From Blepharisma japonicum (Eukaryota; Ciliophora; Heterotrichea; Heterotrichida; Blepharismidae), in contig CATKHK010000059.1 of the NCBI GenBank assembly GCA_949751835.1, positions 62,001 through 126,000 of the forward strand: a stretch of DNA of 64,000 bases, given 5' to 3'. The translations under genes were made by a program, and so were the position numbers. The notes beneath the pieces were generated by a model, which searched no databases, was not told where the DNA came from, and saw nothing but the letters and a program-made list of their open reading frames with translations. Each line of letters opens with the position of its first letter. Position 1 is the first letter of the stretch. Shown piece after piece: positions 9,756-64,000 of this stretch.

Positions 9756-10096
9756 AGCCACTATTTATTAATTTTAATAGGGTTTTCTTAGTTGACTACT
9801 CTTAAGGATGATATTTTAAATTTCGGCAACCTTTTAATCACTTGCAGAAGGCTCATATAATAAATATTGATGGCACTTAAATTAATGCCTAATTTATAAA
9901 AAATACTATATAGCCATTAAACTGTATATTTAAATTTTATCACTATAAATAAATCATTAAGATTATTTTTCTCCAAAATTGAATTGATGAAATGAGCATA
10001 GAGGAAAAAGTACAGTTGGATTCTAGATTTAAAATTAATTTTCATTTATTAAATTTAATGAAATTAAGTTAATTTTAAGCTCTCTTTATTATTAGA
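9756..10096. other. Spacer, 341 nt
   Basis: AT-rich sequence upstream of the repeat-motif protein gene and downstream of the aspartic protease gene. The leader next to ATG 9755 carries AATAAATAGTGGCT on the minus strand, a motif shared with other starts here. I see no gene. Confidence 0.6.
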
Positions 10097-31943: not shown

Positions 31944-34001
31944 ATGGATTCAAGAGACTATGCTTTGCTATCTACTTTAGGGTTTGACATTATGGTATTT
32001 GGGATCCTAGTTGTTTTGTTTCTAATTTATCGTCAATATAGAAGTAAGCACATATATTCAAACAACCCTAATATTATCCCTAAAAATGCTGTATTTTCAG
32101 AATCTGATAACTCATTGAAAATTCTGCTAATCAAGGTATGAAATACAAGCCTATATGATATCTATGACAAATGTGGACTCGAAGCCTATATGTATATGGC
32201 TGTCCACATACAAATCATTATTGGGCTTACCGTTATGTGCTTTTTTGGAGTGATTGTGCTGGTTCCAATTTATTCTCAAGGTGATCAAACTGAAGGATCA
32301 ATAATATTGAAAACAGGGATCTCCAATGTATTGGATGACGAAAATTACCTTGTAGCAAGTATCGTATTCTTTATATTTTTTTCTCTTTTAGGCTATAGTT
32401 TGGTATATATTGTATTGAAAACTGTTTCAATTAAAGCTCATCCTAATAACATCAGAAACTTTAATTATGTGCTAGAAATCAGCGGATTTCCGAGGCAAGA
32501 AGCAATTGATAAAATTTATGATAAAATATATTTTACTTTGCAGAAGGAATTTGCTGATGAATTTCTTGGGCTTTATGTCGTACCAAATCTTGCTCAAAGC
32601 TACATTGCCCACAAGAACTTGCTTGATGCAGAAGAAAAACTTGAGCATTATAAAAAATATCAAGAATCGCATCATTCCCGCAAAGAAATTCGCACAGGAA
32701 TTTTTAAAACCCAAGATGCAATTGAATATTATGAATCATTAATTAAAAAATGCCAAAAAGACTATAAGGATAACCTCAAAGAAAAACGAATAGGAAACTC
32801 TGGGTTTGCCTATGCAACTTTTAGGACGACTGAGTCCGCTGCAAGGGCGAAGAGGCACTTGATGGAAATGAAAAAAATGTTAAATTGGATTGTTAGAACT
32901 GCTCCTGCACCTGAAGAGATTAAATGGGAAAATATGGAAGAAGATTATGAAGTGCTAAAATGGCAGAGGTGGCTGCTGATGATCTTTTTTGTTATTTTAT
33001 TTTTTATTTTGGTCACACCAGCTGGATTTTTGTATTTGGTAAAAGAAGGTTTATCAAGTTTTAATGGTGAACAATTTGTGCATGGTTTATTTAAGGATAA
33101 TTTCCCAACCTTAGTTTTATTATTTTTCCAAGCTGTAATTGTGAATTACTCTGTAAGATACATAGTCCAAAAAGAACAAAGAGTTCATCTTTCTGTGGAA
33201 ACTACAAGTAGACTGGTAAAATACCTTCTCTTTATGGGTTTTTATATTTTCCTTCTTCAAGCTTTAGGGTCGCAGACTCTAATTCAGCTGACACTTGAAG
33301 GATTTTGGGGATCATGGGGAATGAGGCTTCCGATCGCAATCACTCAGACCGGGGTATTTTTCACTATTTTTATAATAAACCAAGCATTTCTGGCTAATGG
33401 TTTTGATTTACTGCAGCCGATTATAATTATAGTCACAAAATTTAGACTATCATTTGCAGAAACTGATAAAGAAAAACTTCTTGCCCAAGAAGCTTTACCC
33501 TTTGATTTTGCATATGAATTTGCGCTTTCTCTTAACTCTTTGCTGATTGTTTTGTGCTACTCAATAGTTTTCCCAATTATCATGATCTTTGGGTTGATTC
33601 ATTTTACATTTAAGGTAAGATTTATTTAGTTTTTTGTTCACAAGTATTTGATTTTGTGTGTAAACTACACCAATAGGACCTCAACAGGAATTTCTATGCC
33701 TAGAGTCTGCTTAACTTCAATAGCCACTTCTCTGTTTGTATTCCAATTTTTAACAGGGTTGATTTTTACAGCTAATAGTTCGAGCTCAATTCGAGAGACT
33801 GGAGGAGTTCTTATATTCATATCAGCAGTCCTTTATATTTTCCTTGTATACAATATTCATAGAGTCCTTAAAAAAGCAATGAGTTGGATAAATGTTTTCC
33901 CTAATTCTGAAGAATACATGCTGAGATCATCTTTTATTGAGTATGATGAAAACTTGTATATTCATCCAATTGAAAAAAAGCTTAAAGAATCAGTAAGATA
34001 A
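31944..34001 (+). CDS. TMEM63/OSCA-type osmo- or mechanosensitive cation channel (680 aa)
   Basis: The protein has the TMEM63/OSCA plan: a first helix (LSTLGFDIMVFGILVVLFLIY), a cytosolic link (SLYDIYDKCGLEAYMYM), two helices, then a ~190-residue RRM-like cytosolic domain (NYVLEISGFPR, GFAYATFRTTESAARAKRHL, APAPEEIKWENMEED). A block of about eight helices follows (LLMIFFVILFFILVTPAGFL onward), including the pore region. TGA 32139-32141 is Trp, and a 15-nt intron (33615-33629) lies in the C-terminal membrane region. OSCA/TMEM63 channels are Ca2+-permeable and opened by membrane tension, so this may serve volume or touch responses at the cell surface or contractile vacuole. Confidence 0.9.
33615..33629 (+). 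other. 15-nt intron in the TMEM63/OSCA gene
   Basis: GTAAGATTTATTTAG, ending in an in-frame TAG. Splicing joins HFTFK to FFVHKYLILCVNYTNR within the membrane domain. The downstream frame would otherwise be orphaned. Confidence 0.9.
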
Positions 34002-35072: not shown

Positions 35073-37385
35073 ATGGATCCAGAAAGTGCTAAACGCGTCC
35101 CAGTTCTAATGGAAAGACTGCTTAAACAAGAGCTCCCAGTTGAGGTTATATCTAGATACCAGCCTTATTTTTTACGTTTACTTGCAAGCCGCATAAATCC
35201 GACTGTAGTTGAGGACGAATCTCAGATTCTTAATTCAATTCTAAGAAGGATTAGCCCACAAAATACAGCGAGACTACAAGATTTATATATAAGATTGACA
35301 AGATCAAAAGGACTATCAAGAAGGTGGGCTATTTTATATGTCCTGAGCAAATTAGTTGATGATAATTCAGTAGCGATTCCAGGATCTTCATTAGAACTTC
35401 TTGCTCCAAGACCTCCAGAAGTACCCAAAATTAAAGAAAAAATCCCGATAATACCAAAAAAAGGGCCAGATGCGCAGATGCCTGTGCTTGAAAAAGAAAT
35501 CTTGAGGGACATCTTATTTGCAATACAAGGAATTGAAGGGAAATACATAACTTTTTCAATGCTTGAAGACTCTTTTGTAATTCAGCCAAATATAGGTGTT
35601 CCAGATCCTATTAGGAAGATGGTTGGAGAACTAGCAGAGCTTGGTTGGCTTTATAAAAAAGTCGTAAAATATATTGACACAAATATAGAGCAGCCTTCAT
35701 TGACGAGCCAAAGCTTATGCTATGCTTTGCAAAGCGACTTGGCTGAATATTACAGATTAATCGCACTCTTAGAGCAGCAGAGAGATGAGCTTAAAGATTT
35801 GAATTTAAGAAAAATAATGCTTTGATGCACAGAGCCATTAGAAAGAATGAAGTGGCTTGCTATTATTTCAGATGCAGCTGAAGGTCTTAAAGGAGGGGCT
35901 TTAGTTTCGTCTTTGTATTCTTACACTTTAATAGGCAACCCATCAGTCAAGGCAATTATTATTCGGATTCTTGATGAAGTCTCTATGCCAATAGTACAAA
36001 TGATCCAGCAATGGATGCTTGAGGGAGAAATTAACGACCCTTATCATGAGTTTTTTGTCTCTACGAATCTAGTTACCCCAGATGACAGACTGTGAACCCA
36101 GAAATACAGCTTAAATACAGAAATGGTGCCTTCCTTTTTTACTCCTCAGCTTGCAAATAAGATTTTACTGACAGGGAAAAGTATAAACTTTTTGCGAAGA
36201 TGCTGTAAAGAAGAAAATTGAATAGCAGCTTCACCGTTAGAACTGCCTAAAATCCATGATTTAGTAGGGTTGTCTAAATGGGTAGACTCTGCTGCTAGAG
36301 TTGCTAATGCTGAGCTTGTTAGAGTGTTATTTGATAAATATAGGTTTAAAGAACATTGCAACAGCATTAGAAAATATTTGCTACTTGGACAAGGAGATTT
36401 TCATCATATTTTGATGGAATTAGTTACTGATACACTTAAAGAAAAAGCTGAGAAAATATACAAACATAATTTATTTTCTATATTAGAATCAGCAATAAAA
36501 TCAAGTAATGCACAATTTCATGATTTGGAATTTTTAAATAGGCTTGATGTCAAATTTTTGGAGGTTTCTCCAGGAGACATAGGATGGGATGTGTTTACAT
36601 TAGACTATAAAGTAGATCCACCACTAAATACCATTTTTACTCCACAAGCAATGGAAAAATATTTAAGAATATTTAAGTTCTTATGGAGACTTAAAAGGGT
36701 GCAATTTTCATTGAATTCCTATCAAGCTGGAAGAGAAATTATAATGCTGCAAAAAATGAAAGAAATTGCCCCAATAATTCACAGCTGCTTATTAAGGAAA
36801 ACCGAAATTTTGCATTTCGTTAATAACTTAATGAACTATTTAATGGTTGAGGTAGTCGAAGGATCCTGGGCTGAGTTTATGAAAAGCTTAGACTCTGTCC
36901 AAGACTTAGACCAAATCATAGAAGTCCATAATGCATTTTTAGACAAATTGATCATGAAATCCTTTCTAGGTTCAGAAACTGATGCCATTTTAAAGCAGTT
37001 GTTGCGGCTTTTAGAGCCAGCTTTAAGATTCCGACAGAGCCAAAACACATTATTTTTATCAGCGAAAGAAGAATATGACAGACTATCAAAGATGCTGAGC
37101 GAGGACGAAGGGGAAGATGCGATTTCCAGAATTTCTTTAGAAAGTATTGAAGATATAAAGCAAATTTCAGAAATTTTCTCTGACGGAGTTAATAAATTTA
37201 GGGAGCAACTAGCAGAAACTGATAGAAATCATTTGAAGTTTTTAGCGTTTAGACTTGATTTTAATGAGTTTTATTCTTACTCACAGATGAAGAGAGCTGA
37301 TGAAAACGCGAAAATGATGAATATTCCGTTTTTCAGAGTGGAAGATGACATTGAGGATACAGATCAGGAAGAATTTAAATTTTAG
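35073..37385 (+). CDS. Gamma-tubulin complex protein 3 (770 aa)
   Basis: One frame through several TGA (Trp) codons to TAG. It aligns to the GCP family by eye, most closely GCP3: ILRDILFAIQGIEGKYITF, LAELGWLYKKVVKYID, SQSLCYALQSDLAEYYRLIA, DPYHEFFVSTNLVTPDDRLW, TPQLANKILLTGKSINFLRR (GRIP1 region), then the C-terminal GRIP2 region (LDYKVDPPLNTIFTPQAMEK, FKFLWRLKRVQFSL, LLRKTEILHFVNNLMNYLM) that binds gamma-tubulin. GCP2 and GCP3 form the gamma-tubulin small complex that nucleates microtubules at basal bodies. The length is slightly short of animal GCP3 (N-terminus reduced). ATG follows AAATAGCGGCAA. Confidence 0.92.
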
Positions 37386-39889: not shown

Positions 39890-42800
39890 ATGGAAGCTTT
39901 ATTACAAGAGCTAAAAACCCAAGACTTAGAAAAGCTTAAAGAAGTCCTTAAAGCCATGACTTGGCTAGCCATGGTAAATAAAGGCTCAGAAGAACTTTAT
40001 AAAGCTATCGAAGCCGTAAGCATCGAAAACGAAGATCTAGAAGTTTCAGGTCGCTCCTTGCAACTTCTTCAGCAGCTTTTACCTGAATGCACTCCTCGCA
40101 TAATTCATTTGCTCCCTTTAGTAATTAACAAATTTGGCTCACCACACTCAATAATATCGCGAACTGCGTTCAATTGCATTGCATTAGCTTCAAAAGCAGC
40201 CCCAAACGAAGTAATTCAAGCTATAAAAGCTGGATTAAAGCACGAGAACGACCGAGTGAGAAGCTCATGCCTAAGAAGTTTAAGCTTAATGCAAAATTAT
40301 GTAGATCATGAACTTATGATGGATATTGTTCATATGTTTAACGACCCTATTGTGAATAATACAGCTTTACAAACTGCAAGAAGATTAATTGCGATCCCAG
40401 AACTTAGAAATAAATTAAATACTGAATTGGTTGAGACTATTGAAAGTGGAACTGCCCCTGAACAAATTCCATTGAGTCCTTTAAGGAAACCAGATGTACC
40501 AAGAATTTTGGACCCAGAGTTTGCACATCAAATAACTTCAAGCTCAAGCTGGAAAGAAAAATTGACTGCAATGGAAGAGCTGAAGGAAAGCTTGAGTGGG
40601 ATTGGAGGTGAGCTTGATAAATATTTGCCTGGAATTCTGGACTTTTTGAAACATTTGCTAGAAGAAACTAACTATAGAATTGTTATAGGTGCTTTAAAGC
40701 TATTTCAAGAAATGCTAGAAATCAGAGGAATCACAAAAAAAGCCAATTTTACACTTTTGATACAACCTTTTATTGAAAAAATTGGTGACGAGAAGCTTGC
40801 ATTTCGCCAGAATACATTCAAAGTTTTCAGGTCTCTTATGAGACAAATGTTGCCTGATACTTATTTTCCATATTTTTTAGAAAACTTGAAAAATGAGAAT
40901 TGGCATATTCGTGAAGGATGCTTGGTTTTAATTATAACTGCGATACTAGAAAAGAGCAACACTAATTATTTTGACTATTCAAATTTAGTAAGACCAGTTT
41001 CTTTGTTGTTAAGTGATGCAAAAGCAAAAATCAGATTCGTTGCTACTGAGACATTGGTTTTATTGGGACAAAGTGAAGGAATAAACCAAGTCTTAGATCG
41101 AGTTGAAGCTGATGAGGTAGCAATTGAAAGGCTGAAAGCAAGGATGAAGAAAAAAGGAGTTGCATCACTTAGAGATGACTGAGTAGAACTTCCTAAAATA
41201 ATCCCAGGCTCAGCTCCAGTTGCGTCTTATCATAACACAGGAATGTCAATAACTGAAAATTCTGAAGCTCTCTCACCTACTCGTTTTACTACTGCCTTAA
41301 ACGAGAGATTATCATCTTTAGCTCGAAGCTCAAACCTTAAATCTCCAAAACCCCAAGAAAAACCAATAATTGCCCATTCACCTCTTTTGATAAGAAAATC
41401 CAGCATAAGTGGAACTCCTATGAGTCGCTCAGTAAACATAGATCGAGAAGCAGACGATACTTCTCCTAAAAGGCCAGCAATCAAAGCTGTAGATGTCGTC
41501 TATTTGAAGCGAGAAGAGCTTGACCCTATAGAAAACCCAGAACTTGAGTTCATGGAATACCTAAAATCTGACCCTACAGAATGAAGTCAGCAGTTTGAAA
41601 TGCTAAATAAGCTGCGAAGACTTTTAAAATACAACTCATCAATGTTCGCCAATGCCCCAATCCACAGTATGGTAATTCAGGCATTAAAATGAGCTGATTC
41701 TTTAAGGTCCAGCTTATCCAAAAACGCTTTAATTGTCATAGGTGAAATGTGCGCAGCGATTCCAAAATTAATTGACCCAGAGCTGGAGTCGATTTTAAAC
41801 TGTCTGCTGCGTAAAAGCGCTGATACAAATGTATTTATTTCAGAGCAAGCTGAAAAGTCATTAGTAACTGTATGCAAAAATTGCAGTGATACGAGGACAA
41901 TAGGAATTTTATTCCAAGCTGTCAACAGTACAAGGTCTTCACAAATTAAAGCAAAAACTGCTATGTGTTTTCATACAATTTTTGAAAATCGTAGCAATGA
42001 TATTCGAAGAATTAAAGAATTAGAAAGGATGATACAACTTCTGGCTGCCTTATCAAGAGAAGCTTCAGCTGAAGTAAGATTTAATGCAAAAGCAGCGTTA
42101 AACTATCTAAACTCTGTAATTCCTTCGGATTTTGATAAATTATTGAAACGTGCATTAAATACAAACGACTATATTATTACTAAAGAAAGCTTAAGCAAAG
42201 TTGAAGCAGAATCTCCATTTAAAAAAATTTTAAAAAATCAAGAAATGATCATAAGATCTCCTTTCAGGGCCAAATCATCTGAGCCTATTGATGTGATAAG
42301 AGAAGATTTGAATAACGATGACTGGATCAGAAGAGTTGAAGCTATTTCTAAATTAAAAGATTTAGGAATAAAATCAAAAACAATCACAAGTAAGTCTTTA
42401 CATTGCTTAATTACTGGCCTTAATGATGAAGATTCAAGAGTGTCTATGCACACTTTGACTGTGATTTCAAAATTGCTGCCCTGTACCACAAATAAGCCTG
42501 ATATTTCTCCTTTATTACCTGGGCTCGTAAATTTGTTAAACTCTCCAAATAATTTATTGAGAAACAATGCCAAAGATGTATGCAGAATTTTAATACACCA
42601 AGGCGACCTATCACAAATTTTGCCTTCACTGCTGCAGTGCATAAAGAGAGATAAAGATAAAGCGTGGCTGTTTTTATATACACTGTTGATTGACTCTTTA
42701 TCAATTGTTTATTCTCAAAGGCCAAGCTTAATACATAAACATATTATTCCTTATGTTGTAAAGCTACTGGAAGATGGGAATATAGGTGGATCTGAAAGAA

Positions 42801-42895
42801 AGTTACTTGAAAGACTTCATAATGTCATGGGAAGCGATTTATCTGTTTACTTGGGCGATGCTTGGGAAAAGTTTTTGAATTATTGTGATAATTAA
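39890..42895 (+). CDS. TOG-array protein, crescerin/TOGARAM1-like (1001 aa)
   Basis: One frame through TGA codons at 41180, 41582 and 41690 to TAA. HEAT/TOG repeats fill residues ~1-180 (NKFGSPHSIISRTAFNCIAL, HENDRVRSSCLRSLSLMQNY), ~215-430 (SSWKEKLTAMEELKESL, KIGDEKLAFRQNTFKVFRSL, KIRFVATETLVLLG), ~555-700 (EWSQQFEMLNKLRRLL, SLRSSLSKNALIVIGEMCAA) and ~800-1000 (DDWIRRVEAISKLKDLG, NSPNNLLRNNAKDVCRIL). A Ser-rich linker (~445-545) splits the pairs. Two TOG pairs with a long linker is the plan of crescerin/TOGARAM1, which regulates microtubules inside cilia; CLASP is the main alternative. It fits an organism covered in cilia. Confidence 0.85.
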
Positions 42896-49539: not shown

Positions 49540-52500
49540 ATGATAAGTTTTTTTGCTTTTTTATTCTCTTTTTATCTCAGTCAAGGCCAGCTCTTTATTG
49601 AAGTTCTTTATAGCAGTTATACAGATATTAGCTTTGTTTCCCAATTGTCAGCCTTTCTTAAGCAAACCTTAACTCACCATATCGAGCTCAAAGAAACCAT
49701 AATTATGGACTGCTCTGAGAACATAGTTCGCCTTGATGAAACTCAAATCGTGATAGATTTAACCTTAAGTCTCCCATTAGTAAATTGTATAAAAGATTTA
49801 GCAAATCAAGCTCACTTTATAGTTCTCGATTCAAATACTTATGCAGAAAACTATCATGATTGACAATTTTCGGTGCACTACACTCCTCAAGACCATAATA
49901 ATGCACTGTCAAATTTAATTGAGTTTTTGAGTTGAGATGAATTTATTGTGATTTCTAATATTGATGCACAGCAAAACTATGGTGAATTAACAAAGATATT
50001 TTCCAATAAAATTTTAAAATTTTTTAATTTTGATCAGAATCAAAGTGAAGATTATATTGATCGATTAGTGGGTAAAGTAATCAAGCCAACTGGAATAAAA
50101 AATATTGTAATATTAAATGAAGGAAATAGTGCTGAAAAATTAGTTAAAAGCTTGACGAAAAAAAAAATATTTGGCTCTGGATGTGGAGTCATATTAGGTA
50201 GTAAAAGTTTGTGGAATATTAAAGAAGATGGGGTTTTAGCTTATATTGAGTCTGAACTTGAAGATTCTGTTGATGCTTATAGCTATGAAATCTTAGCATA
50301 TACAAAGTTTATAAAGCTGATTTTAGAATTTCAAGAAATTTCCGATCCTTTTGAATTGAAGCAACTTCTGGAAGAGAATACTGAAAATCATCATCTAAAA
50401 TCTGAATTTTCTGTGATTAATATAAAAAATAATCAAAAAATAAAAATAGGAGAGATATATGATGAGCTATCGCTTTATGGCACTATAATTTTCCCTGGAA
50501 ATTCTACAGCAGTTCCAAACTCACCGACAACTAGTATCACTATATCTATAGCTGATGGTGCAACTAACCCAGGCTACACAAATAGTAGTTACTCTATAAT
50601 TAAGACTGGCGCGAAATATGCATTATCATACATAAAAGAAATCAATTTTCTTGGTGGGTTTGAGATTTTGGTACAGCATACTAATTGTGGAGCTGAGGTT
50701 TATAGCCCTTCCTTTTCTTATGACTGCTTTCATAAATTAAAAAGCCAGCTTGGAGTTGGGTTTTTAACAACTCCATCAGCACCAACATGCATTGGAAATA
50801 TAATTTCATTGAGACGCTTAGGAATTTCAATCCCACAAATCTCTGAAAATTCCCCAGCTCCCATCTTAACTAATAAAACAGCATATCCAGAATTTATGAG
50901 AGTAATTAAAGATGGCAGGTACAACACAGGAGTTCTCTTTAGCCTTTTAGCAGTCTTTAATTGAAAAAATATAATTGTGTTCTATGAGAACTCAACTGGA
51001 CCTATATCATTTTATCAATATTTGGTAAAAATGATAAATAACACAAACATAAATATTGTAAATGATCCGAGCGAAAGGCTGATTAAAATAAATTATAGAC
51101 ATACTGACTATGAGCAATACAGGCCAGCAATGCTTAACGTAATAAATTCAAGAACTAGAATTTTTATAACATTTATAAATGCTCCTTCAGAGTTTTACTT
51201 CATTGAGGATTTATATGACACAGGGTTAAGAAGAGGCGACGCTTTATTTTTGTTTTACCTCAGAACAGCATTTGCTTTATATACTGAGCCGGATCCAGCT
51301 CAAATTAAAAAGCTGCTGGAGCTAATGTATGGCTCAATTGTTATTGACAATCAAGATTGAGTAGGAAGTTATGGACAAAAGCTTAAAGATGGATACATTA
51401 AAATTTATGGCTCAGATACCATATATAGATGCTTTTCATTTGATGCTGCAATGTTACTGCTAAATGGGATTAAATATACAATAGATCAAGGAGAAAATGT
51501 TGAAGACTCAGCAATATTGAATTCCAACCTAAGAGCTCAGAGGTTTATGGGATGTTCTGGAATTGTTTCAGTTGATCCTGGCTCTAATCAGAGGAGTACA
51601 AGCATAATGAATATTTTTAATTTAAAGTGAAATGCAACAACGAATTTATTATATGAGTTTCCTGCAGCAAAATATGACTTAGGAAGTGCTCAGCTTATTC
51701 AATTTTATGAAAATATAATTTGATATGACAATACAACTAACACACCTTCTGACACAATTCCATTATATGTATGCCCATTCGATAAAAGCCTAGAAAAATA
51801 TTCTAAAAAAGGAGCAGGAATCTTGTATTGTATAAGTTTTTTTATTATTATTGTGACAGCTGGGACAACTTTTTATATATGAAAATGATGGTGAAGTGTT
51901 GAAATTCCAATGTTAACTACAAGATCGCTTATTAAATTTGAAGATTATATTGCAATGGCAATGATTTTTATATACTTTCTTCAATACTTAGCTATGGGTC
52001 CAGATATAGATAAATACGATAGATATTCAAATAATCTTACCAGTTATGCAATTATCAATTTTCATTCGCTCACTCAAGGCAAGATATTTTGGGTTTATGT
52101 AGAGTTGGTTATTGGAGCAGTAGGATTATGGCTTTATTTTAGTGTTCACATGATACTAAGACTTGATGCTAAATTTGTGAACTTTTTTTCAACTTACAGT
52201 AAAACTTTAGCGACGCTATTGATGCCATTTCTTGGAAATGCTTGCTTTTTGCCAATAGTCTCAATACTGCTTAGCGTATTTCAATGTGACCAATCCATTG
52301 GAGATGATCTTTCTCAAAGTTTCGTAAGAAATGATTGCAATCAATTTTGTTATAAAAATTATCATTTGCCTATAGCTTTTATCTCATTAGCTGCTTTAGT
52401 TATTTACTTACCTCTTGCTATTTATTTTAGACCATTCTGAGATCACTCAAATGATTATACAAATATAAAACATAGATCACATTTTCTGATGATTAAAAGC

Positions 52501-53109
52501 TTACTCCAAGTTTGTATTATAGTTTTAAACAAGACTGTAAAGGTTTATAGCCAACCTTTGCATGGAGCGTTCTATATTTTACTATTTTTAGGCTTTTTAC
52601 TATTCTGCATAAAGAAAAAGCCTTATAATTATGATAGATGCAACTTATGGTCAATTATTTCTTATGGCGCAATTATTTGAAGTGTGTCTCTTTCCTCTTT
52701 GTTTTGAATTTTGCCAGAAAAGATGTATTCGATATGAATTGCATTGGAATATATAGGATGAGGATTAATGATAACTTTTGGATTATATTTTCAACAAAAA
52801 CTTTACCCAAGCTTGCTTTATTCTGAAGAAGGTCCTGACATTACTCTATTTTTCCGCTTTTTGCTGGGAAGTAAGGTCCTTGCTTCTGAAATAAACCAAG
52901 CCAATCAGGAAAGATCTGACAGAAAAAAATATATGTCATCTGGAAATGAAAAAACGAAACTAAAGGAAAATGATCAATGTGATGCTATAGGCATATCGAA
53001 TATACCAGAAAGCTTATTTTTCCATAGGCCTAACAGTTTATTTGATCAGGGGCAAGAGAATTATCCTATAGATATAAGCTCTACTCGAAAACTTATAGGC
53101 CATTACTAA
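49540..53109 (+). CDS. Double Venus-flytrap receptor, array copy 1 (1189 aa)
   Basis: A single frame with many TGA Trp codons. Signal peptide (MISFFAFLFSFYLSQG), then a first flytrap-like domain (~18-315; GIKNIVILNEGNSAEKLV, GVILGSKSLW, IIFPGNSTAVPN as closing motif), then a second one (~328-735; ISIADGATNPGY, FEILVQHTNCGAEVY, TCIGNI, AYPEFMRVIKDGRYNTGVLF, SEFYFIEDLYDTGLRRGDA, GCSGIVSVDPGSNQRSTS). The membrane part has about nine helices from GILYCISFFIIIVTAGTTFY; between them sit LLSVFQCDQSIGDDLSQSF, RNDCNQFC and KKPYNYDRCNLW. The cytosolic tail has QERSDRKKY. Probably a surface chemoreceptor; ligand unknown. The helix count and motifs do not match class C GPCRs. Stop TAA. Confidence 0.88.
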
Positions 53110-53959
53110 AGCAATAAAATTTTGAATTAAGAAAGTAAAGCTGGACTAATTTATTATTTATTTTTATTTAATTTAACTTAAACATAAAAATGATAATATA
53201 AAAATTTAAGTATATAAGTGTTATAATTGTATCTAATTATAGCTTTTGTTATAATTAAATTATATTTATTCAATAAATACATTTTTAAAAGCTATTTAAT
53301 TTTTAAATATATTGTCTCAATGTCTTATTTGAATTCAATGAGGGATTTTTTTATGATTATATCCGAGAATTTTAACAAATAAATAAATTAGAGCTCCAAT
53401 AGTTAATTAAAATTTGCACCAGATATTTCAAAGCCTTAACAACTTCCATAGTTATGGAATACAAAAAAAATGGTTTTCATATATTGAATTATAAGACATA
53501 TCAAAGAATTATAAATTGATTCCTATGCCTCGTATAAAATGAGCAAGCATTTTTTAAAATTCAATAATTTAAACTTTTTTACAATAAACTATTTGCCTAA
53601 TAAAGATACTTCTACTTACTCATTTTGCTTTCTGATGGGTAGATAGTTCAAAATGATTGATTTGATAATATTTAATTTATGTGACTGCAATTAATTATTT
53701 TAATCATTAATTAACTATTAAACTTATAGATATAGCACTTAAATTATTATAAAATTTAATTTTTCTTGGTAATTCTCTTTAAAAACAAATGGGTTTCAAG
53801 GCTAAATTAACATATACTAATCTTATTAAAAAAAAAACTGACTCACTAAAATGATTTTCCTAATTATTCTTAGATTATTAAACATTATATAAATTGTTTT
53901 GAATAAGAATTAAATAATATACTTTAATTTCCATTATTAATTATTAATAAAAAAAAGTA
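53110..53959. other. Intra-array spacer, 850 nt
   Basis: Very AT-rich sequence between receptor copies 1 and 2. No reading frame of note. Confidence 0.6.
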
Positions 53960-56900
53960 ATGATAGCTATTTTAGCTTTGATCTTCTCATTCTGCTTTAG
54001 TCAAAGTCAGCTATTTATTGAAGTTATTTATAGCAGCAATACAGATCCTAACTTGATTTCATACACATCGAATTTCCTCAAGCAAACTTTAAACAGCCAA
54101 ATTGAGCTCAAAGAAACTATGCTCACACATTGTTCTGATGAGCTAATTTATCGTGTTGAAACTCAGTTAGTAATAGATTTAACATCAAGCCTCTGATTCG
54201 GAAATTGCATAAAACGTTTAGCAAATCAAGCTCATTTTATAGTTATAGGTTCGAACCCAATCTCAGAATTCTATAATGAGTGGAAATTTTATACTCACTA
54301 CCAAATTCAAGATCACTATCATGCTTTATTTAAAATAGTTGAGCTTTTGAATTGGGACAATTTTATAATTATTTCCAGTAATGGCTCTGAAGAAATCTAT
54401 AGCGGATTAGTAAATGGATTTTCTAACAAAAAAATAATGTTTTATAATTTTGCGGAGAATGAAACCCAAGACAATGCAGATCAGCTAATTGGTAAAGTCA
54501 TTCGGCCTACAGGGATAAAAAATATTGTCATCTTAAATGAAGGAAATAGTGCAGAAAAATTAGTCAAAAGCTTGAAGAAAAAAAATGTATTGAGTTCTGG
54601 CTGTGGAATCATATTAGGTAGCAAAAGTTTATGGAGCATTAAGGAAGACGGAGTTTTAGCTTATATTGAATCAGGTCTTGAAAGTTCTGTTGATTATTAT
54701 ACTTACGAAGCATTAGCATTTGCAAAGTTTATAAAGCTAATTTTAGAGTTTCAAGAAATTTCTGATCCGTTTGGATTACGACAATTTTTAGAAAAAAATA
54801 CTGAAAATCATCATCTTAAACCTAAATTTTTGATGATGAACATACAAAATAATTATAAAACTGCAGTCGGAGAAATATATCAAAACCTTTCACTAATTAA
54901 TTCCATTATTTTTCCTGGGAATTCAACAGCGATTCCAAATTCGCCGATATCTGATATCACTATATCTATGGCAGATGGAGTCACAAATCCAGGGTATATA
55001 AACAGCAGCTATTCCTATCCAGTTAAGTGGGGTGCAAAATATGCTTTGTCACATATAAAAGAAAGCCATTTTTTAGATGGGTTTGAAATTATAGTGCAGC
55101 ATACAGATTGCGGAGCTGAGGTTTATAGTCCAGCTTATTCATATAAATGCTTTAGTAAGTTGAAAACTCAACTTGGAGTTGGATTATTGACATCAACAAC
55201 AGCTCCAACATGCATTGGAAATATATTTTCACTCAGGAGCTTAGGAATTTCAATTCCTCATATCTCTGAAAACGCCCCAGCGCCAATTTTGACAGATAAA
55301 AAGGTATATCCAGAGTTCATGAGAGTAATTAAAGATAGCCGATATAATGCAGGAGTTCTATTTAGCCTCTTAGCTATTTTTAATTGAAAGAATATTGTTA
55401 TTTATTATGAAAACTCAACTGGGCCTATTATGGTTTATCGATATTTTGAGAAAATGATAAATAATACAAATATAAACATAATAAACAAGTCTAGTGAAAG
55501 ATTGATTAAAATAAATTATAGACATACCGATTATTCACAATATAGCTCCTGAATGCTCAATGCAATAAATTTAAAAGCAAGAATCTATATCCTATTTATA
55601 AACGCACCATCAGAATTTTACTTTATTGAGGATTTGTATGATACCGGACTACGAAGAGGCGATGCTATTTTTTTGTTTTATAACAGGATTGCTTTTGCTC
55701 TTATGACTGAGCCTGATCCTGTGCAAAGTAAAAAGTTATTAGAGTTACTATATGGCTCTATTGCTGTTGATCAAGAAGATTGGGTGGGAGAATATGGCAG
55801 GCAACTTAAAGAAGGATATGTAAAAATTTATGGCTCGGAAACTGTATTTCGATGCTTCTCATTTGATGCTGCAATGCTGCTGTTAAATGGAATCAAGTAT
55901 ACAATAGACCAAGGAGAAAATGTTGAAGACTCATCAATATTGAATGCCAATTTGAGAATGCAAAAATTTATTGGATGTTCTGGAACCGTTTCAGTAGATC
56001 CCGATTCTAATCAGAGGAGTACAAGCATAATGAGCATTTTTAATCTAAAATGGAATGAAACAATAAATTCATTATATGAGTTTCCAGCGGGAAAATATGA
56101 CTTAGGAAGTGCTCAGCTTATAAAATTTTATGAAAATATAACTTGATATGACAATACAACTGATACTCCTTCAGATATAATCACTTATGGTGGGTGCCCT
56201 TTTGATAAGAGCCTCGCTAAATATTCTGTAAAAGGGGCATCAATTCTTTATTGTGTGGGATTTATTATTATTGTCCTAACAATAAGCACTACATTTTATA
56301 TATGAAGAAGATGGTGGAATATTGAAATTCCTAAATTAACAGCAAAATCATCAATAAAATTTGAAGACTATATCGCAATAACCATGATTTTCATATATTT
56401 CCTCCAATATTTAGCAATGGGGCCAGATTTAGATAAATATGATAAGTATTCTGATTGACTTGCCAGTTATGCTGTAATAAATTTTCATTGACTCACAAAA
56501 GGAAGAATATTTTGGTTTTATGTGGAAATAGTTATTGGGGCAGTAGGACTTTGGCTTTATTTTTGTGCTCACATAATTCTACGGCTTGAAGTAAAATTTG
56601 TGAACTTTTTTTCTACTTACAGTGCAAATTTAGCATCAATATTAATGCCATTACTTGGAAATGCTTGCTTTTTGCCAATAGTCTCAGTTCTTCTAAGCGT
56701 ATTTCAATGTGACCAATCAATTGGAGATGATTTTTCTCAAAGCTTCTCAAGAAATGATTGCAATCAATTTTGTTATAAAGACTATCACCTTCCAATTGCT
56801 ATAATCTCTTTAATTGCTTTAGTTGCTTATTTGCCTCTTGCTATTTATTTTAGACCATTCTGGGATCACTCAAATGACTATGCAAATATAAAGCCAAGGT

Positions 56901-57553
56901 CACTTTTCTTGATGGTAAAAAGCTTGCTCCAAGTTTGTATTATAGTTTTAAATAAAACAGTAAAGGTCTATAGCCAATCTTTGCATGGAGTGTGCTATAT
57001 TTTACTTTTTCTAGGATTTATGGTATTTTGTATAAAGAAAAAGCCTTATAACTATGATAGATGCAATTTATGATCGATAATTTCTTATTGCGCAATTATA
57101 TGAAGCGTGTCCCTTTCCTCTTTGTTTTGAATAATACCAGAAAAGATATATTCGATATGAGTTGCATTAGAATACATAGGATGAGGGTTATTGATTAGTT
57201 TTGGATTATTTTATCAGAAAAAATATTATCCAAGCTTACTTTATTCAGAAAAAGCTCAAGACATTAGTTTATTTTTCCGATTTTCACTTGGAAGTAAAAT
57301 TCTTGCCTCAGAAATAAATAAATCCAATCGAGAAAGATCTGACAGAAAAAAATATTTATCCTCAGAGATTGAAAAAATCAAGTCGAGGAAAATTGTTCAA
57401 GATAATGTTCTTTGCATTTCAAATGCACCAGAAAATTTATTATTCCATAGAGTTAGCAGTTTATCACTTCAAGAGCAAGAAAATCATACAGTAGATCTTA
57501 GCTCTTCAAGAAATCTCATTGACATAAGAAAACAAAAATCATTCAAAATATAG
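53960..57553 (+). CDS. Double Venus-flytrap receptor, array copy 2 (1197 aa)
   Basis: The closest relative of copy 1 along its entire length, including DNA-level near-identity in stretches (for example GNSAEKLVKSLKKKN and KKPYNYDRCNL). Signal peptide MIAILALIFSFCFSQS; first flytrap domain to IIFPGNSTAIPN; second with ISMADGVTNPGY, QHTDCGAEVY, EFMRVIKDSRYNAGVLF, GCSGTVSVDPDSNQRSTS; then about nine helices. Trp codons differ from copy 1 at matching places (TGG 56861 here for TGA 52438 there; TGA 57072 here for TGG there), so both codons mean Trp. Tail motif RERSDRKKY is kept. Stop TAG. Recent tandem duplicate with intact frame. Confidence 0.88.
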
Positions 57554-57916
57554 AATTTTAAATTTTCTATATTGATGAATGATTTATTCTAATTTAATTT
57601 ATTAGCAGCTTTGCTAGCTGATATCTTAATTAAGACAAGTACCCCAGGATAAATTTAATTGCTAAATATTAATCTGATGAAATAATTTGAATTTAAATCT
57701 TTCTTATTTATATCGATAACAATGGATAATTCGGTTCGTTGGAATCACTATAGCATCTCCGTATATTTAAATATAATTAGAAAAATTATTACTTTTTATG
57801 CTATGACAATTCTAAGAAATTTGATAATTGTTCTTTTTAATATTAATGATTTATATTTTAAGAGTTTATAACATTTCAAAATTAACATTGTTTTTTTCAT
57901 TAGATCTTATGTAAAT
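57554..57916. other. Intra-array spacer, 363 nt
   Basis: AT-rich; the shortest gap in the array. It must hold the 3' end signals of copy 2 and the promoter of copy 3. Confidence 0.6.
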
Positions 57917-60900
57917 ATGATTAACTATTGGATTTTTCACCTTTTTGTGCCACTTATTTTGTCTCAAATTCTTGTAGGTATATTTTATAGCAACTTTACA
58001 AGCATGAGCTTGCTTGAAGCTACAGCAAATTCTCTTAGGCAAGCCTTCCCAAAAGAAATAAACTTAAAAAAATATTACTTTTCTTCTTGCGCAGAGCTTT
58101 CAGGTTCAGGAGTAGAAACCGATGTAATTTTTGATATGACTTCAAGCATTTATTTTGAAGGATGCATCAAAGATTTCAGCTCTGAAACTCAATCAATTAT
58201 AGTTAGTATAGAAAACCAAAAATCAATTTATTCAGATTGACAATTTTTTACCCACATCGAAGAGAGATCACACATTGATGCAATGCTTACTTTGTCTGAT
58301 TATTTAAATTGGGATAAATTCATAGTAATTTCTGGTGAAATTCAAAATCAGCTCATATCAAAATTTCGAAATAAAAGCATCTTATTCCACAACATCGCAG
58401 AGACAGCCAACCAAATTTCGGCTGATAACTTTATAGCAAAAGAAATAAAAATAACTGGGGTAAGAAATATTGTAATTTTAAATACTGGAGAAACTGCTGA
58501 AAAATTGGTGAAAAGTTTAAAAAACAAAAACCTTTTTGTTGTTGGAAGCGGAATTATTTTAGGCAGTAAAAGTTTATGAGGAATTACAGAAGATGGCATT
58601 TTAGCTTTTATTGAAGATGGATTGGAGAGTTCCTTTGATTCTAATAGCTACGAAGTTTTGGGTTATATAAAATTTATTAATCTCATTTTGGAATTTGGTG
58701 ATACATCTAGGTTAGAACTAAGGCAATTTTTGGAAGAAAATACTATAAATCATCATCCAATTTCAAAGTTTTCATTAGTAAATATTCAAAATAACCAGCC
58801 AGTAAAAGTCGGAGAAATAATTAAAAAGAGCTTAAAATTGAATGCTCCAATAATTTTCCCAGGAAATTCTTCATCAATTCCTAATTCCATAATTACGAAT
58901 ATCCGTATTTCGATGGCTGATGGAGTAACGAATCCAGGTTTTCAAAATAGTCCTTATGCTCAAATAGTCAAATCGGGTGCAAAATATGCATTATCTTATA
59001 TCAATCAAACCCATTTTTTAGATGGCTTTGAGTTTCAAGTAACTCACACAGACTGTGGGGCTGAAGTTTATAGCAAAACATTTTCTCTGAATTGCTTCAA
59101 ACAGTTAAAAGATAAAATCGGAATTGCACTTTTAACCTCATATAATGCAAACGCTTGCATTGGGAATATTATTTCCTTAAGAAACCTTAATATATCAATT
59201 CCACACATTTCAGATCTGACTCCAGCTGCCGCATTAGCTAACGAAACTGTATATCCTGAGTTTATGAGAGTTTACAAAGACAGCCGATATAACGCAGGAG
59301 TTATTTTTAGCCTAATTTCAGTTTTCGGGTGGAAAAATGTCATTTCATTTTATGAGAATTCACCTGGCTGCATTGCTGCATACAGAGCTTTTGAAGGTTC
59401 AATTAATAACTCAGATATCAGCATCGTCAATAATGCCAATCAACGAATGATAAATACTAATTATAAGCATACTGATGTTACAAAATATAAAAGCTGAATG
59501 GAGGATGCTTTGAGCTCAAAAATAAGAATTTACGCTCTTTTTATCCTTCCTCCTGGGATATTCTATTTCATCGAGGATTTTTATGATATTGGAATGAGAA
59601 GAGGGGATGCAGTTTTTATGTTTTACAATAGAGTTGCTTATGTTTTGCTCTCTGAGACTGACCCTGTACAAATTATGAAGTTGAATGAATTAATGTATGG
59701 GTCAGTTCTTACAGACCAATTAGACTGAATTGGGGAGTATGGTAAATCAATAAAAGATGGCTATGAAAAAATATATGGCTCTGCTGCAGAAAACATTGCA
59801 TTTAGGTGTTTTTCTTTTGATTCTGCAATGCTTCTAGCGAATGGAATTAAGTTTACACTTTATCAAGGAGAAAATCCAGAAGATAACAACATATTAAATA
59901 CAAATTTAAGGAAGCAAAGGTTTACGGGTTGCTCAGGCACTGTTTCAATTGAGCCGGGATCTAATGACAGGAGCATAGCAATCATGGGAATTTATAATAT
60001 TAGATATAATCAAACTATATCTTCTTTATACGAGCACTTAGCAGGAAAATATGATAGGGGAAGCACCCAACTCATTACATTTTTTGAAGACATCATTTGA
60101 TATGACAACACCACTTCCATTCCATTTAATTTTATTACAGAAGGCGAATGCCCTTTTGATAAAAAATTAATTAGATACTCCACAAAAGGTGCAGGAATTC
60201 TTTATGGGATAAGTTTCGGTATCATAATTGTAACAGCTATTATCACTTTTTTCATATGAAAGTTATGGTGGAATATTGATATTGTCCAATTAACATCCCC
60301 AGTGCTCGCAAAGCTTGAAGACTACTTTGCTATGCTCTTGATATTCTTATATTTTTTGCAGTATTTGGCAATAGGCCCAGATATTGGCCAATATGATAGA
60401 CTTTCTAGCTGGCTATCGAGCTATGCTATTATAAATTTAGGATGGATAACTGAAGGAAAAATGTTTTGGTATTATGTGAAAGCAGTCCTAATAGCCGTGA
60501 TTTTTTGGATTTATTTCAGCTTCATCATTATATTTAAGTTTGAAGGAAAATTCAATAATTTCTTTTTTCACTATTCTCAAACCTTTGCTGAATTACTTAT
60601 GCCTATACTTGGGAATGCTGGCTTTCTACCAATTGTATCTGTTTTGTTAAATGTAATTCAATGTGATCAAGCTATTGGCAATGATCTTTCCCAAAGCTTT
60701 GTAAGAAAAGATTGCTCTGTTTTTTGCTGGCAGGGGTCGCACTTAAGCACAGCAATCTGCTCAATTATAGCGCTAATTCTTTACTTGCCTCTAGCAATTT
60801 ACTTTAGACCTTACTGGGATAATTCAAGCGACTATATCAATATAAAGACAAGGCCATTATTCCTTATGGTAAAAAGTTTGCTACAAATTTTTATTATCAT

Positions 60901-61438
60901 TTTAAATAAAACACTAAAAAAACACAACCAATCATTGTATGGGCTGATTTATATAGTTAGTTTTTTGGGATTTCTCTATCTCTGCTTGAAGAAAAAGCCA
61001 TATAATTATGATAGGTGCAATCTATGAACAACTGTTTCTTACTGTGCAATTATTTGGAGTGCGACCTTATCTTCTCTATATTGGATTCTTTCATATAGAT
61101 CATTATCAGCTTGGATCATTCTCCAATATATTGGATGGGGATCAATGATAGCAATAGGAGCTTTTATTCAAAATAAGCGCTACCCAAGCTTACTTTGTAC
61201 AGAAAAAGCGACTGACATTAGCATATTGTTCAAGTTTTCTTTAGGGCACAAAGTTAGAGCTGAAGAAATTAATAGATGGAATAAAGAAAGATCTGATAAA
61301 AAATATCTTGCTTATGATAGTGGGGAAAATATTTTAAAAAGTTATGACTATGTTATTGATATTTCTGGAAGACATGGTGATATTTTTGAACAAAAGAAAA
61401 GCCCAGGTGATGCCAGATTTATTATAAGTGAAGAATAA
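57917..61438 (+). CDS. Double Venus-flytrap receptor, array copy 3 (1173 aa)
   Basis: A more divergent array member with the same order of parts. Signal peptide MINYWIFHLFVPLILSQ; first flytrap domain (GVRNIVILNTGETAEKLVKS, GIILGSKSLW, IIFPGNSSSIPN); second domain (IRISMADGVTNPGF, THTDCGAEVYS, CIGNIISLRNLNISIPH, FIEDFYDIGMRRGDA, GCSGTVSIEPGSNDRS); then about nine helices from GILYGISFGIIIVTAIITFF, with LLNVIQCDQAIGNDLSQSF, RKDCSVFC and KKPYNYDRCNLW. The tail keeps NKERSDKKYL. TGA is used as Trp throughout. Conservation of Cys, KKPYN and ERSDxKK motifs in all copies argues for continued function. Ligand pocket residues vary more than the membrane part. Confidence 0.88.
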
Positions 61439-62746
61439 AAATTATTTAAGAATAAGAAATAATAAATATTTTTATTAAAAATAACTATGCTGAAAGGCAC
61501 ACTTAAGGTTTTATTGATCAGATTTGTATTTGCATTTGGGAGTTTGAAAAATTAATAATTTTGTATCCTCATACTAGAGCTCTCCTTTACCTATCTGAAA
61601 CTCAAATTGAGAATTATGATACTAATTCTACTACACTAAAGGCTTAAATAATTAAAGCAAGATTGCTAAATACTGAAGGCTTTTAAATAGAGAATAAAAA
61701 ACATTAAAGCTGGCTAATAAATTCAACAAGCAAATTCAATTTCATAGCTCAGACTGAAAAGTTTAACACCAAGTAAATTGATTTCTCTGATTTAATTCAA
61801 TATCAAATGTTTAAACTAAACCTGCGAAATTTTATTACTGAATCGATTTAAGTGCATTAAGGCAAGAGCAATTAAATTTAATGCTGAGAATATCTAAAAT
61901 ATCTAATCTTAAATTTTCTGATTAGCATTTTAACTACTCTTAATAAGCCATTTATTTGTATAATATTTTAATTTTGGCATATCGACTACTGAAATTTTAA
62001 GCAAATAATTGCAAATAATGTTAATATTTAGAGTCTTTTATCCTTCTGCTCTTGATATATTTGCCCTTTGCTAAGAAACTATGGCATCTAGAAAGTGGCG
62101 AAATTTTTTCTTCATTTATTTTAAAAAAATTCGAAAATAGAAGCACATAATAAGAAGGAATAAATTTGAAAAGAAATTCTAGTGATCTTTGAGTCACATC
62201 AATAATAAAAAATTTGTGAAATTGATCCATAAGACAAAAAATTTGTAATTAATCCAATCTAAAATGTTTTAAAATTTCAACTGATCTTTGGATAAAAAAT
62301 TTTAATTTATAATCTTCTTTGCATTATAATCTTGAAAATTATTAGAAAAGTTTTAGTTTGTAATTTATATCCTTAATAAACTATTAAAAAAGTTACATAT
62401 TTATTAATTCTTCATTTTATTTCCTGAAAATTTAGGATCAGTCATGTCAAATTCAAATAGCCTTTTTCATAGGAAACAACAGAACAATAACTCTGCGTCA
62501 TTTTTACATCCTTCAAGTACTTACAATGTAAAGATATTTCCTTTTTTGTATAGTGCACTGGACCAAAATGGACTCTCAGTTAATAAATATTACAATTTCT
62601 TCTTTTAAGATCAAGATATGCATTTTTAAACTTAAGATATTTAAAAACAGAAGCATGAAGAAACATTGTTCCTTTTCCATACGTTTCATTAGATTATATG
62701 TGTTATAAGTCTAATATTTAAATTATGAAACTGGTATTATATAATA
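61439..62746. other. Intra-array spacer, 1308 nt
   Basis: AT-rich; wide enough to have held another gene. The plus-strand frame ending near 61650 (TRALLYLSETQIENYDTNS) is protein-like but without ATG. The small ORF at 62444-62608 is listed separately. A minus-strand 69-codon frame (62021-62230) is judged to be chance. Confidence 0.4.
62444..62608 (+). CDS. Possible small ORF (54 aa)
   Basis: ATG 62444 to TAA 62606-62608; reads MSNSNSLFHRKQQNNNSASF and continues with an aromatic end. Composition is less biased than the surrounding spacer, but the length is within what chance gives when only TAA and TAG stop. It may be a gene fragment. Confidence 0.25.
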   Translation: MSNSNSLFHRKQQNNNSASFLHPSSTYNVKIFPFLYSALDQNGLSVNKYYNFFF

Positions 62747-64000
62747 ATGGTGAAATTTATAGCTAGTTTAACTCTTCTGGCATTGGTGCAAAGCCAACTA
62801 CTAGTTGAAATCTTTTTTAGTTCGCTCACGGACACTGGCCTTATGACAAGCATTTCAACTAACTTAAGAATAAAGCTCAACACTCAAATTGATTTAAGAC
62901 AAACGGAAATTAAATCGAGCTCAAGCATTTTAAATCGAAAAGTAAACCCAACTATTGCTCTAGATCTCACTTCTAGCGTTTCATTTTCTCGAATTCTTAA
63001 AGAATTATCAAAACAAAACCAATTTATTTTGGTCTCCTTTTCCCCAAGTGATTATTATGATTTTTGAGAGTTTTTTATACACAACCCTTTATCAGACCAC
63101 GTTGATGCATTTTTTAGCTTAATTTCTTATTTCGAATGAGACAAATTTATTGTCATTTCAGACTTTATTTTTAATCCAATGACTGCTTCTACATCAGCAG
63201 ATGTTTCTAGTAAAGAAATTTATAATTTCCATTTTTCTGATGAAGGCAGCCAAGATTCAGCTGATTTATTGATAGGTAAAGCAATTAAGCCAACTGGTAT
63301 CAAAAACATTATAATTTTCAACAAAGGAGAAGGCGCCACAAAAATAATTTCAAGTTTAAAATCAAAAAATTTATTAACGCAAGGTGCTGGGATTTTACTT
63401 GCAAGTCAAAGCATTTGAGGACTTCAAGGAAGTGGCCTTATAGCTATTATTGAATCAGGCCTACAAAACTCTACCAGTTATTACAATTATGAGGCTCTTG
63501 CCTTTGAAAAATTAATCCGTCAAGTGATTTCTTTTAACGAATTTTCCAATATTGCGATAAGAGAACTCCTGGAAAAAAATACAGTGAATCATCACCCCGC
63601 TCCTAAATTCATGCTAATAAATACTCTAAATTCCACTAAAATCCCTTCAGGAAGCATTACAGCTGGAAATTTAACACTAACTAGACCAATTCTTTTTCCA
63701 GGGAATTCTAGTGTTCCTCCCAATTCTCCTTATACAAATATTACAGTATCTATGGCAGATGGAGTCACAAATCCAGGCGCTGCCAATAGCTCAACAGCGC
63801 ATATTATAAAAGATGGAGCAAGGTATGCTTTTAGCTATTTAAAAGAGACCCATTTTCTAGACAATTTTCAAATTTCGATCACACACACAGATTGTGGAGC
63901 TGAAGTTTTTAATGCAAGTTTCGCAATCCAATGTTTTGCACGCTTGAGAAGACAGCTTGGAATAGCTCTAATCACTGCCAATTATCCTTTGCTATGCATA
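62747..64000 (+). CDS. Double Venus-flytrap receptor, array copy 4 (3' end outside window)
   Basis: Signal peptide MVKFIASLTLLALVQS followed by the array-type first domain (GIKNIIIFNKGEGATKIISS, GAGILLASQSIW) and the closing motif ILFPGNSSVPPN. The second flytrap domain begins at ITVSMADGVTNPG and is read as far as THTDCGAEVFNASFAIQCF and the following segment before the window ends, 418 codons in. TGA at 63065, 63137 and 63416 are Trp at positions where other copies also have Trp. The membrane part is not seen. It is the most divergent visible copy in the first domain. The array probably continues to the right. Confidence 0.85.

Follow-up and report, generated by a model that had tools for sequence, protein, structure and literature searches.

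What kind of receptor does a ciliate encode when Venus-flytrap domains stand before a membrane part that is not that of a G-protein-coupled receptor (GPCR)? The question is raised by 64,000 nucleotides of Blepharisma japonicum DNA (assembly GCA_949751835.1, 45.2 Mb in 224 contigs), namely positions 62001-126000 of contig CATKHK010000059.1, or C59. We call this whole stretch the window; other contigs are numbered likewise, and individual loci carry the letter L. An earlier note, made from the letters of this DNA alone, had described four tandem same-strand paralogues in 49540-64000 with two flytraps in series, about nine helices and an architecture other than that of class C GPCRs. The four genes, B to E, are present and encode proteins of 1189, 1197, 1173 and 1176 amino acids, and a fifth, gene A, lies at window 1-2830. 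We propose, with a probability of about one half, that they belong to an expanded plasma-membrane chemoreceptor family of the ciliate, in which flytraps in series would pass their signal to a TRP-like membrane domain that may conduct ions.

Results

We aligned 31 full-length relatives end to end (1126-1272 amino acids; the genes were picked from match lists and are not a random sample). All share a layout that opens with a hydrophobic stretch and two flytraps and goes on to about nine hydrophobic segments and a short tail. One further gene, L037 (C34:7000-11600), was kept in a 32-row alignment of the membrane modules and dropped from the 31-row full-length alignment, because one stop, between parts of 623 and 512 amino acids, interrupts its frame; the stop may reflect decay, a sequence error or another cause.

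The ANF_receptor family (PF01094) was found in 31 of the 31 full-length members, with two stretches each in genes B, C and D (Pfam, E up to 10), and Peripla_BP_6 was matched in 19 of the 31. When a profile of the 31 genes was compared with solved structures, the best 60 of 214 matches placed positions 361-734 on plant GLR3.4 (E 2.6e-21), GABA-B1 (5e-18), GABA-B2, T1R and mGluR, and positions 87-331 on GluN1 N-terminal domains (E down to 1e-16). Flytrap 1 taken alone, as a profile of 28 of the 31 genes (L033 and two L018 genes were omitted by choice), also matched the GluN1 N-terminal domain (E 1.1e-11), and it was recovered in every one of the 31 genes by a profile of the other 30 (133-290 bits). 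Homology between the two flytraps was, moreover, evident from hhalign, which scored the pair at 60.9 (E 1.4e-7) and the reversed control at 11.8. Gene B by itself gave flytrap matches that were weaker than those of the profile searches (best E 0.001), and AlphaFold, given the four window sequences as input, modelled the ectodomain at a predicted local distance difference test (pLDDT) score of 36.9. The separate structure matches of each half and the homology of the halves show two predicted flytraps in series in each receptor, as the earlier note had held, and the point is settled on sequence and not on structure. The stretch IIFPGNST..PN, which the note had taken for the usual end of a flytrap, proved to be a motif of this family at the junction of the two domains; its status as a general flytrap ending was not borne out.

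Four ectodomains examined carry 8-13 N-glycosylation sequons each. We also tried to read a ligand class from pocket residues; those of mGluR and GABA-B aligned poorly by eye in gene B, and this was too weak to use.

The hydropathy of the membrane module, averaged over 32 modules, has nine peaks. Gene by gene, nine segments were counted in 20 of 31 genes and 8 to 11 in the rest at a threshold of 1.0, and 7 to 10 at a threshold of 1.2, these being counts of hydropathy and not of structure; the proposed figure of about nine helices thus held. With flytraps outside and nine helices, a loop with three cysteines (C916, C933 and C937 of gene B) would lie outside the cell and the basic tail inside, although the lysine and arginine counts of the remaining loops agree only weakly with this topology. 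The basic segment past the last helix holds a mean of 5.9 lysines plus arginines in the first 25 tail columns. The tails change fast, with ratios of nonsynonymous to synonymous substitution rates (dN/dS) of 0.19-0.74 in four pairs, and do not align across clades.

Fixed signatures had been proposed for this module. Three of them (LLSVFQCDQSIGDD, RNDCNQFC and ERSDRKKY) are exact only in genes B and C, and KKPYNYDRCNLW is found in three of the four genes. What stood is that, from these stretches, C, DC, C and N are among the invariant columns of the 32 modules; ERSDRKKY is local.

The class C GPCR membrane family, 7tm_3 (PF00003), matched 0 of the 32 modules in a search open to E 10, whose filters remove most hits weaker than about 0.1, in agreement with the claim of a different architecture. 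All three 7tm_3 matches in the genome are in other genes, and against these the module scored 14.8 by hhalign (E 0.43), under the shuffle maximum of 21.2. Loci L019, L020 and L021 (C5:680687, C25:371904 and C81:97858) encode proteins of 431-433 amino acids. Their N-terminal halves match 7tm_3, above the cut-off in one of them, and the cytosolic halves that follow resemble RGS proteins by eye; no convincing G alpha was matched in this genome. In the 31 members, the only domains matched at E up to 0.01 were ANF_receptor, Peripla_BP_6 and Oxidored_q2 (two members, E 0.0016). No enzyme or cyclase domain was matched by Pfam in genes B, C and D or in the 31 members; nor, in the 31 members, were the pore and ligand-binding core domains of ionotropic glutamate receptors (iGluRs), and the NCD3G linker is absent from the families matched there.

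What, then, is the module? Our comparisons suggest that it is probably distantly related to the TRP-like (PF06011) membrane domain, connected to it through a set of eleven proteins that we call GCC2/GCC3-type. PF06011 had 35 matches in the genome at E up to 10 (best 2.5e-7; eight over the cut-off). Eighteen of these loci were read, and by eye and profile 11 are of the GCC2/GCC3 type and 7 of a Cys-rich type. Cys-rich L048 passes the PF06011 cut-off by hmmscan (31.6 bits against 28.5), and L049, also Cys-rich, falls just under it by hmmscan (27.6 bits) and reached 31.5 bits in the genome search; GCC2/GCC3-type L050 was over the cut-off in the genome search (31.4 bits). The membrane parts of the two types match each other by hhalign (score 55-57, E about 1e-6).

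The receptor module, in turn, aligned with the 11 GCC2/GCC3-type membrane parts at hhalign scores of 41.6-42.4 (E 1.2e-4 to 1.4e-4, 147 columns), whereas controls reached at most 21.2 (20 column shuffles), 23.4 (60 shuffles) and 22.9 (reversed or rotated). When the receptor profile was compared with 40 single sequences, the top seven were all of the GCC2/GCC3 type (30.6-46.9; best of 22 decoys, 27.2). In the opposite direction, the GCC2/GCC3-type profile scored up to 44.1 with single receptor modules (gene E), placed at least 12 of 32 above the best decoy (24.4), and aligned nearly the whole module of a receptor on C173 (63-359 to 62-329, E 0.007). The alignment also revealed a shared motif, chosen post hoc: all 32 receptor modules carry C[W/Y]xxx[H/Y], as do 10 of 11 GCC2/GCC3-type proteins and none of 6 Cys-rich ones, and its stricter form, CWxxxH, is present in 27 of the 32, 10 of the 11 and none of 372 other frames. 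A second motif, P[YF]-x5-N, is found in 16 of 32 receptor modules, 11 of 11 GCC2/GCC3-type and 3 of 6 Cys-rich proteins.

Other results weigh against this kinship, or against a channel. None of the 35 places matched by PF06011 is a receptor locus from our four module queries, and 0 of 32 receptor modules match the family. As to the intermediate set, by hmmscan the whole frame of L050 is under the PF06011 cut-off (18.3 bits, E 0.0012), L051 and L054 are unmatched, and none of the 11 GCC2/GCC3-type membrane parts matches at E 1. The aligned part is mostly 140-150 columns in the C-terminal half. Four of the 11 GCC2/GCC3-type sequences score no better with the receptor profile than the best decoy (27.2), and the median of the 32 receptor modules with the GCC2/GCC3-type profile (24.1) is below the score of the best decoy (24.4). 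Compared directly with the Cys-rich set, the module scored at noise level (23.2, hhalign), and hmmsearch with the module profile did not raise the GCC2/GCC3-type proteins above noise; the link is visible by profile-profile comparison, and simpler searches did not show it. Across the 32 modules no Pfam family matched more than two, and no match in any of them went beyond chance, the lowest E being 0.0066 for a single member. Among solved structures the sole match of the module profile was the Lmo2059 protein, at a chance-level E of 0.085. No pore motif was identified, no search aimed at pore motifs having been made.

Profile searches of the PDB with the GCC2/GCC3-type and Cys-rich membrane parts gave nothing at E 1 and one match at E 0.085, and AlphaFold, with the four window sequences as input, modelled the receptor module at a pLDDT of 38.3. 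The earlier note had regarded the membrane part as a module other than that of a GPCR. The lack of any 7tm_3 match is in keeping with that view; the module may nevertheless be no orphan fold but a distant TRP-like domain.

The eleven GCC2/GCC3-type proteins (L050-L054, L058, L059 and L061-L064, on C60, C11, C9, C40, C137 and C85, with several on C60 and C11) have a TRP-like membrane part, poorly covered by Pfam, and a big, repeat-like, cysteine-rich ectodomain. Proteins with Ephrin_rec_like (PF07699) matches, which are concentrated on C33, C53 and C117, were considered as carriers of the membrane part and rejected: by eye, L022-L025 (C14, C76, C33 and C1) have kelch-like and cysteine-rich GCC2/GCC3-type repeats with few helices, and L046 is cysteine-rich with a coiled-coil look and one helix.

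The family is large. On 55 contigs we found at least 206 loci with the membrane module, and 159 of these lie within 7 kb of another on the same strand; the largest sets are on C93 (27 loci), C19 (24), C112 (16) and C126 (14). Four module queries from different clades gave 100, 94, 110 and 108 matches from 269, 280, 265 and 256 first-look candidates, and since only about the best 100 candidates were scored for each, 206 is a lower bound; it includes fragments, perhaps assembly duplicates (two loci on C217 score alike) and perhaps non-working genes. PF01094 has 106 matches in the genome, of which 101 were compared with the module loci (five short second fragments were omitted); eight of the 101 lack a nearby module from the four queries, and two of these eight (on C113 and C115) have one by profile.

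The outer domain is the most variable part of the receptors, and the membrane part, the putative transducer, is the best kept: the members of 465 pairs are on average 21.8% identical in flytrap 1, 29.0% in flytrap 2 and 37.1% in the membrane module. Purifying selection on the receptor family is shown by genes B and C, for which dN/dS is 0.23 in flytrap 1, 0.11 in flytrap 2 and 0.15 in the membrane module; these two are the one pair not saturated, silent sites in more distant pairs being saturated or nearly so.

All receptor genes of the window are on the forward strand and are read with TGA as tryptophan. Genes B, C, D and E, in tandem, are each open in one frame with 14, 12, 7 and 11 in-frame TGA codons, in line with the reading that the earlier note had assumed. 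Gene B (49540..53109, stop TAA) has a signal-peptide-like start, judged by eye and hydropathy, ahead of the first flytrap (49591..50493, residues about 18-318; boundaries approximate, the leave-one-out profile matching residues 19-320). The second flytrap (50533..51744, residues about 332-735; Pfam ANF_receptor at 356-698) is followed by the membrane module (51772..52818, residues 745-1093, from the module alignment and hydropathy). Its hydrophobic segments are at residues 760-778, 803-821, 854-872, 897-915, 943-961, 978-996, 1006-1024, 1040-1058 and 1066-1084, and the loop between segments 4 and 5 (52285..52365) holds the three invariant cysteines and the C[W/Y]xxx[H/Y] motif. Genes C (53960..57553) and D (57917..61438) are double-flytrap receptors as well, with module and tail at about 56183-57523 and 60137-61432; so is gene E, which runs from 62747 through the window end at 64000 and continues in L009:248-3778. 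Gene A, matched by the module profile in hmmsearch, is the 3' part of a further double-flytrap receptor of 1227 amino acids in all, whose open reading frame (ORF) starts at C59:61147, 854 bases ahead of the window, and whose module lies at about 1574-2776.

In a tree of the family, genes B to E are grouped in a single clade (ultrafast bootstrap 100, Shimodaira-Hasegawa-like approximate likelihood ratio test 99), in which B and C are nearest to each other, and the branching order E, D, B plus C fits stepwise tandem duplication. Gene A belongs to another clade (100/100), with genes on C133, C52 and C173.

By Pfam, the window encodes a Mcl1/WD protein (4609-6888), a two-domain AAA ATPase (12991-14940), an aldehyde dehydrogenase (18157-19731), a gamma-tubulin complex component (35073-37385) and a CLASP/TOG-type protein (39890-42895); with such housekeeping neighbours, the receptor array sits within normal gene-dense sequence. 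A 561-amino-acid ORF at 31944-33629 has RSN1_TM, PHM7_cyt and RSN1_7TM, which are all three OSCA/TMEM63-type parts. Two ORFs, at 7092-9761 (reverse strand) and 20530-22620 (forward strand), resemble paralogues by eye, each with an acidic start and charged repeat-like stretches, and a 772-amino-acid ORF downstream of gene E (L009:6254-8572) consists, by eye, nearly wholly of TPR-like repeats.

The AT content of the window is 62-71% in 4-kb steps. Runs of an 8-base telomere repeat, CCCTAACA, number 77 on one strand of the assembly and 91 on the other, and those of the reversed pattern 0; among the runs listed, plus-strand ones start no more than 421 bases into their contigs, and the ones of C4 fall within its final 110 bases. 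The same telomere repeat and UGA as tryptophan are given for the somatic genome of Blepharisma stoltei (41 Mbp, 66% AT) in the available excerpt of its description (PMC9942806), so that repeat and code are consistent with Blepharisma.

Discussion

Flytraps bind small ligands and close upon them, in class C GPCRs, iGluRs and natriuretic receptors alike. From the domains and the expansion of the family we infer that its members are receptors. Each chain would enter the secretory route by its signal and expose two bilobed flytraps in series outside the cell; the membrane module, of about nine helices with the three-cysteine loop outside, would end in a short cytosolic tail without an enzyme. A ligand would close one or both flytraps, and closure would be passed to the module, which may then change the flow of ions, most likely Ca2+ or other cations, and the cell would alter its swimming, feeding or mating. 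With no enzyme domain matched and no convincing G alpha, the module itself is the likeliest transducer; were it TRP-like, closure of the flytraps on their ligand would open a path for cations. This channel step is about as likely as not. More boldly, and as a possibility short of probable, the family may be a class of ligand-gated ion channels in which a membrane domain of the TRP superfamily is gated directly by two stacked flytraps. Such channels would have arisen in ciliates separately from the glutamate-type channels of animals, plants and insects and have grown to more than 200 genes, some of them perhaps gamone receptors.

The module need not conduct ions, of course. The flytraps could hand the signal to a cytosolic partner that docks on the module or tail, following the logic of class C GPCRs with a membrane part that is not a GPCR. 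The basic segment just after the last helix (a mean of 5.9 lysines plus arginines in 25 columns) would suit such a partner, as would the fact that no pore motif was identified, by analyses that included no search aimed at one. Against this reading, none of the 19 PF00503 matches in the genome is a convincing heterotrimeric G alpha (an exon-by-exon search can miss genes). Seventeen of them are under the cut-off, in frames of 153-242 amino acids that we take for small GTPases, and the other two are summed in one 676-amino-acid frame, which was left unread. The tails, moreover, vary fast (dN/dS 0.19-0.74) and cannot be aligned across clades. We consider partner signalling unlikely.

Distinctly unlikely, in our judgement, is that these are proteins of recognition or surface variation, for mates, prey, self or as variable antigens, whose flytrap 1 varies for binding without a ligand-gated signal. 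The large tandem arrays, the divergence of flytrap 1 beyond all other domains and the 8-13 sequons on each of the four ectodomains examined would fit this, as would mating in Blepharisma, which runs through gamones; no gamone receptor sequence is named in the available excerpt of PMC10892320. The membrane module, however, is the best conserved part (37% against 22 and 29%), which argues against a mere anchor, as an anchor would not need conservation, and dN/dS is well under 1 in every domain of the B-C pair.

Nutrient scavenging, in which flytraps catch small molecules and pass them to a transporter-like module, has two points in its favour: the flytraps are akin to bacterial solute-binding proteins (Peripla_BP_6 in 19 of 31 members), and the yeast TRP-domain protein Flc1 is linked to both flavin transport and calcium in the portion of PMC9600462 available. 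No transporter family was matched beyond chance, though, and two serial flytraps on one membrane part, in more than 200 paralogues, would fit sensing better; we regard scavenging as improbable. Least probable are true class C GPCRs whose seven-helix domain has diverged past recognition and gained two hydrophobic segments, for although flytrap 2 is closest to iGluR and class C ectodomains and 7tm_3 genes exist in the same genome, 7tm_3 matches 0 of 32 modules, hhalign with those genes gives 14.8, the segments average nine, NCD3G is not among the matched families, and the evidence for G alpha is poor.

We return to the proposed chemoreceptor family with a TRP-like module. We found no description of a double-flytrap family in the open-access literature, which was the scope of our search, as distinct from subscription papers and supplements. 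A GPCR survey of 27 ciliate species reports no family C members, in the excerpt available, its candidates having been chosen by GPCR models such as 7TM_3 (PMC9960496); such selection would pass over a flytrap family with another membrane part. What is new here may be filed as a flytrap receptor joined to a different transducer. If so, flytrap sensing in ciliates would be coupled in its own way, the TRP-like superfamily would extend to ligand-gated receptors, and a cell whose behaviour and mating signals are classically studied would gain a large set of candidate chemoreceptors, among them candidates for the Blepharisma gamone receptors. Should the channel reading hold, the 'nose' of one cell would rival an animal olfactory repertoire in size. 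The ciliate may thus perceive the chemicals around it by a so far undescribed route.

How does the family compare with known systems? Receptor guanylyl cyclases of the natriuretic peptide receptor type share the ANF_receptor ectodomain. They have one helix and a cyclase, whereas the family here has about nine segments and no enzyme match; with no cyclase domain in genes B-D or the 31 members, we rejected membership. The PF06011 TRP-like proteins (fungal Flc/Pkd2-like), together with the Cys-rich and GCC2/GCC3-type proteins, are alike in the remote profile-profile similarity of the C-terminal half of the membrane domain and unlike in the ectodomain, which is cysteine-rich or repeat-like there and made of two flytraps here; the module is, moreover, beneath the reach of PF06011. 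Class C GPCRs (mGluR, GABA-B, CaSR and T1R) also place an extracellular ANF_receptor flytrap before a helical membrane domain, but the present receptors have two flytraps and about nine segments and match neither 7tm_3 nor NCD3G. Membership was rejected on 0 of 32 modules with 7tm_3 and on nine hydropathy peaks where seven helices would be expected.

The iGluRs, including plant GLRs and insect IRs, offer a parallel in plan. These receptors carry an N-terminal flytrap on top of a ligand-binding domain, with a pore below, and both flytraps of the present family match iGluR N-terminal domains best (GLR3.4 and GluN1), with two domains likewise stacked outside the membrane part. The second domain here, however, is a type-I flytrap again and not the iGluR ligand-binding core, and membership was rejected on the lack of any match to pore or core in the 31 members. 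The order of flytrap 1, flytrap 2 and membrane module nevertheless recalls that of iGluRs, though the parts differ.

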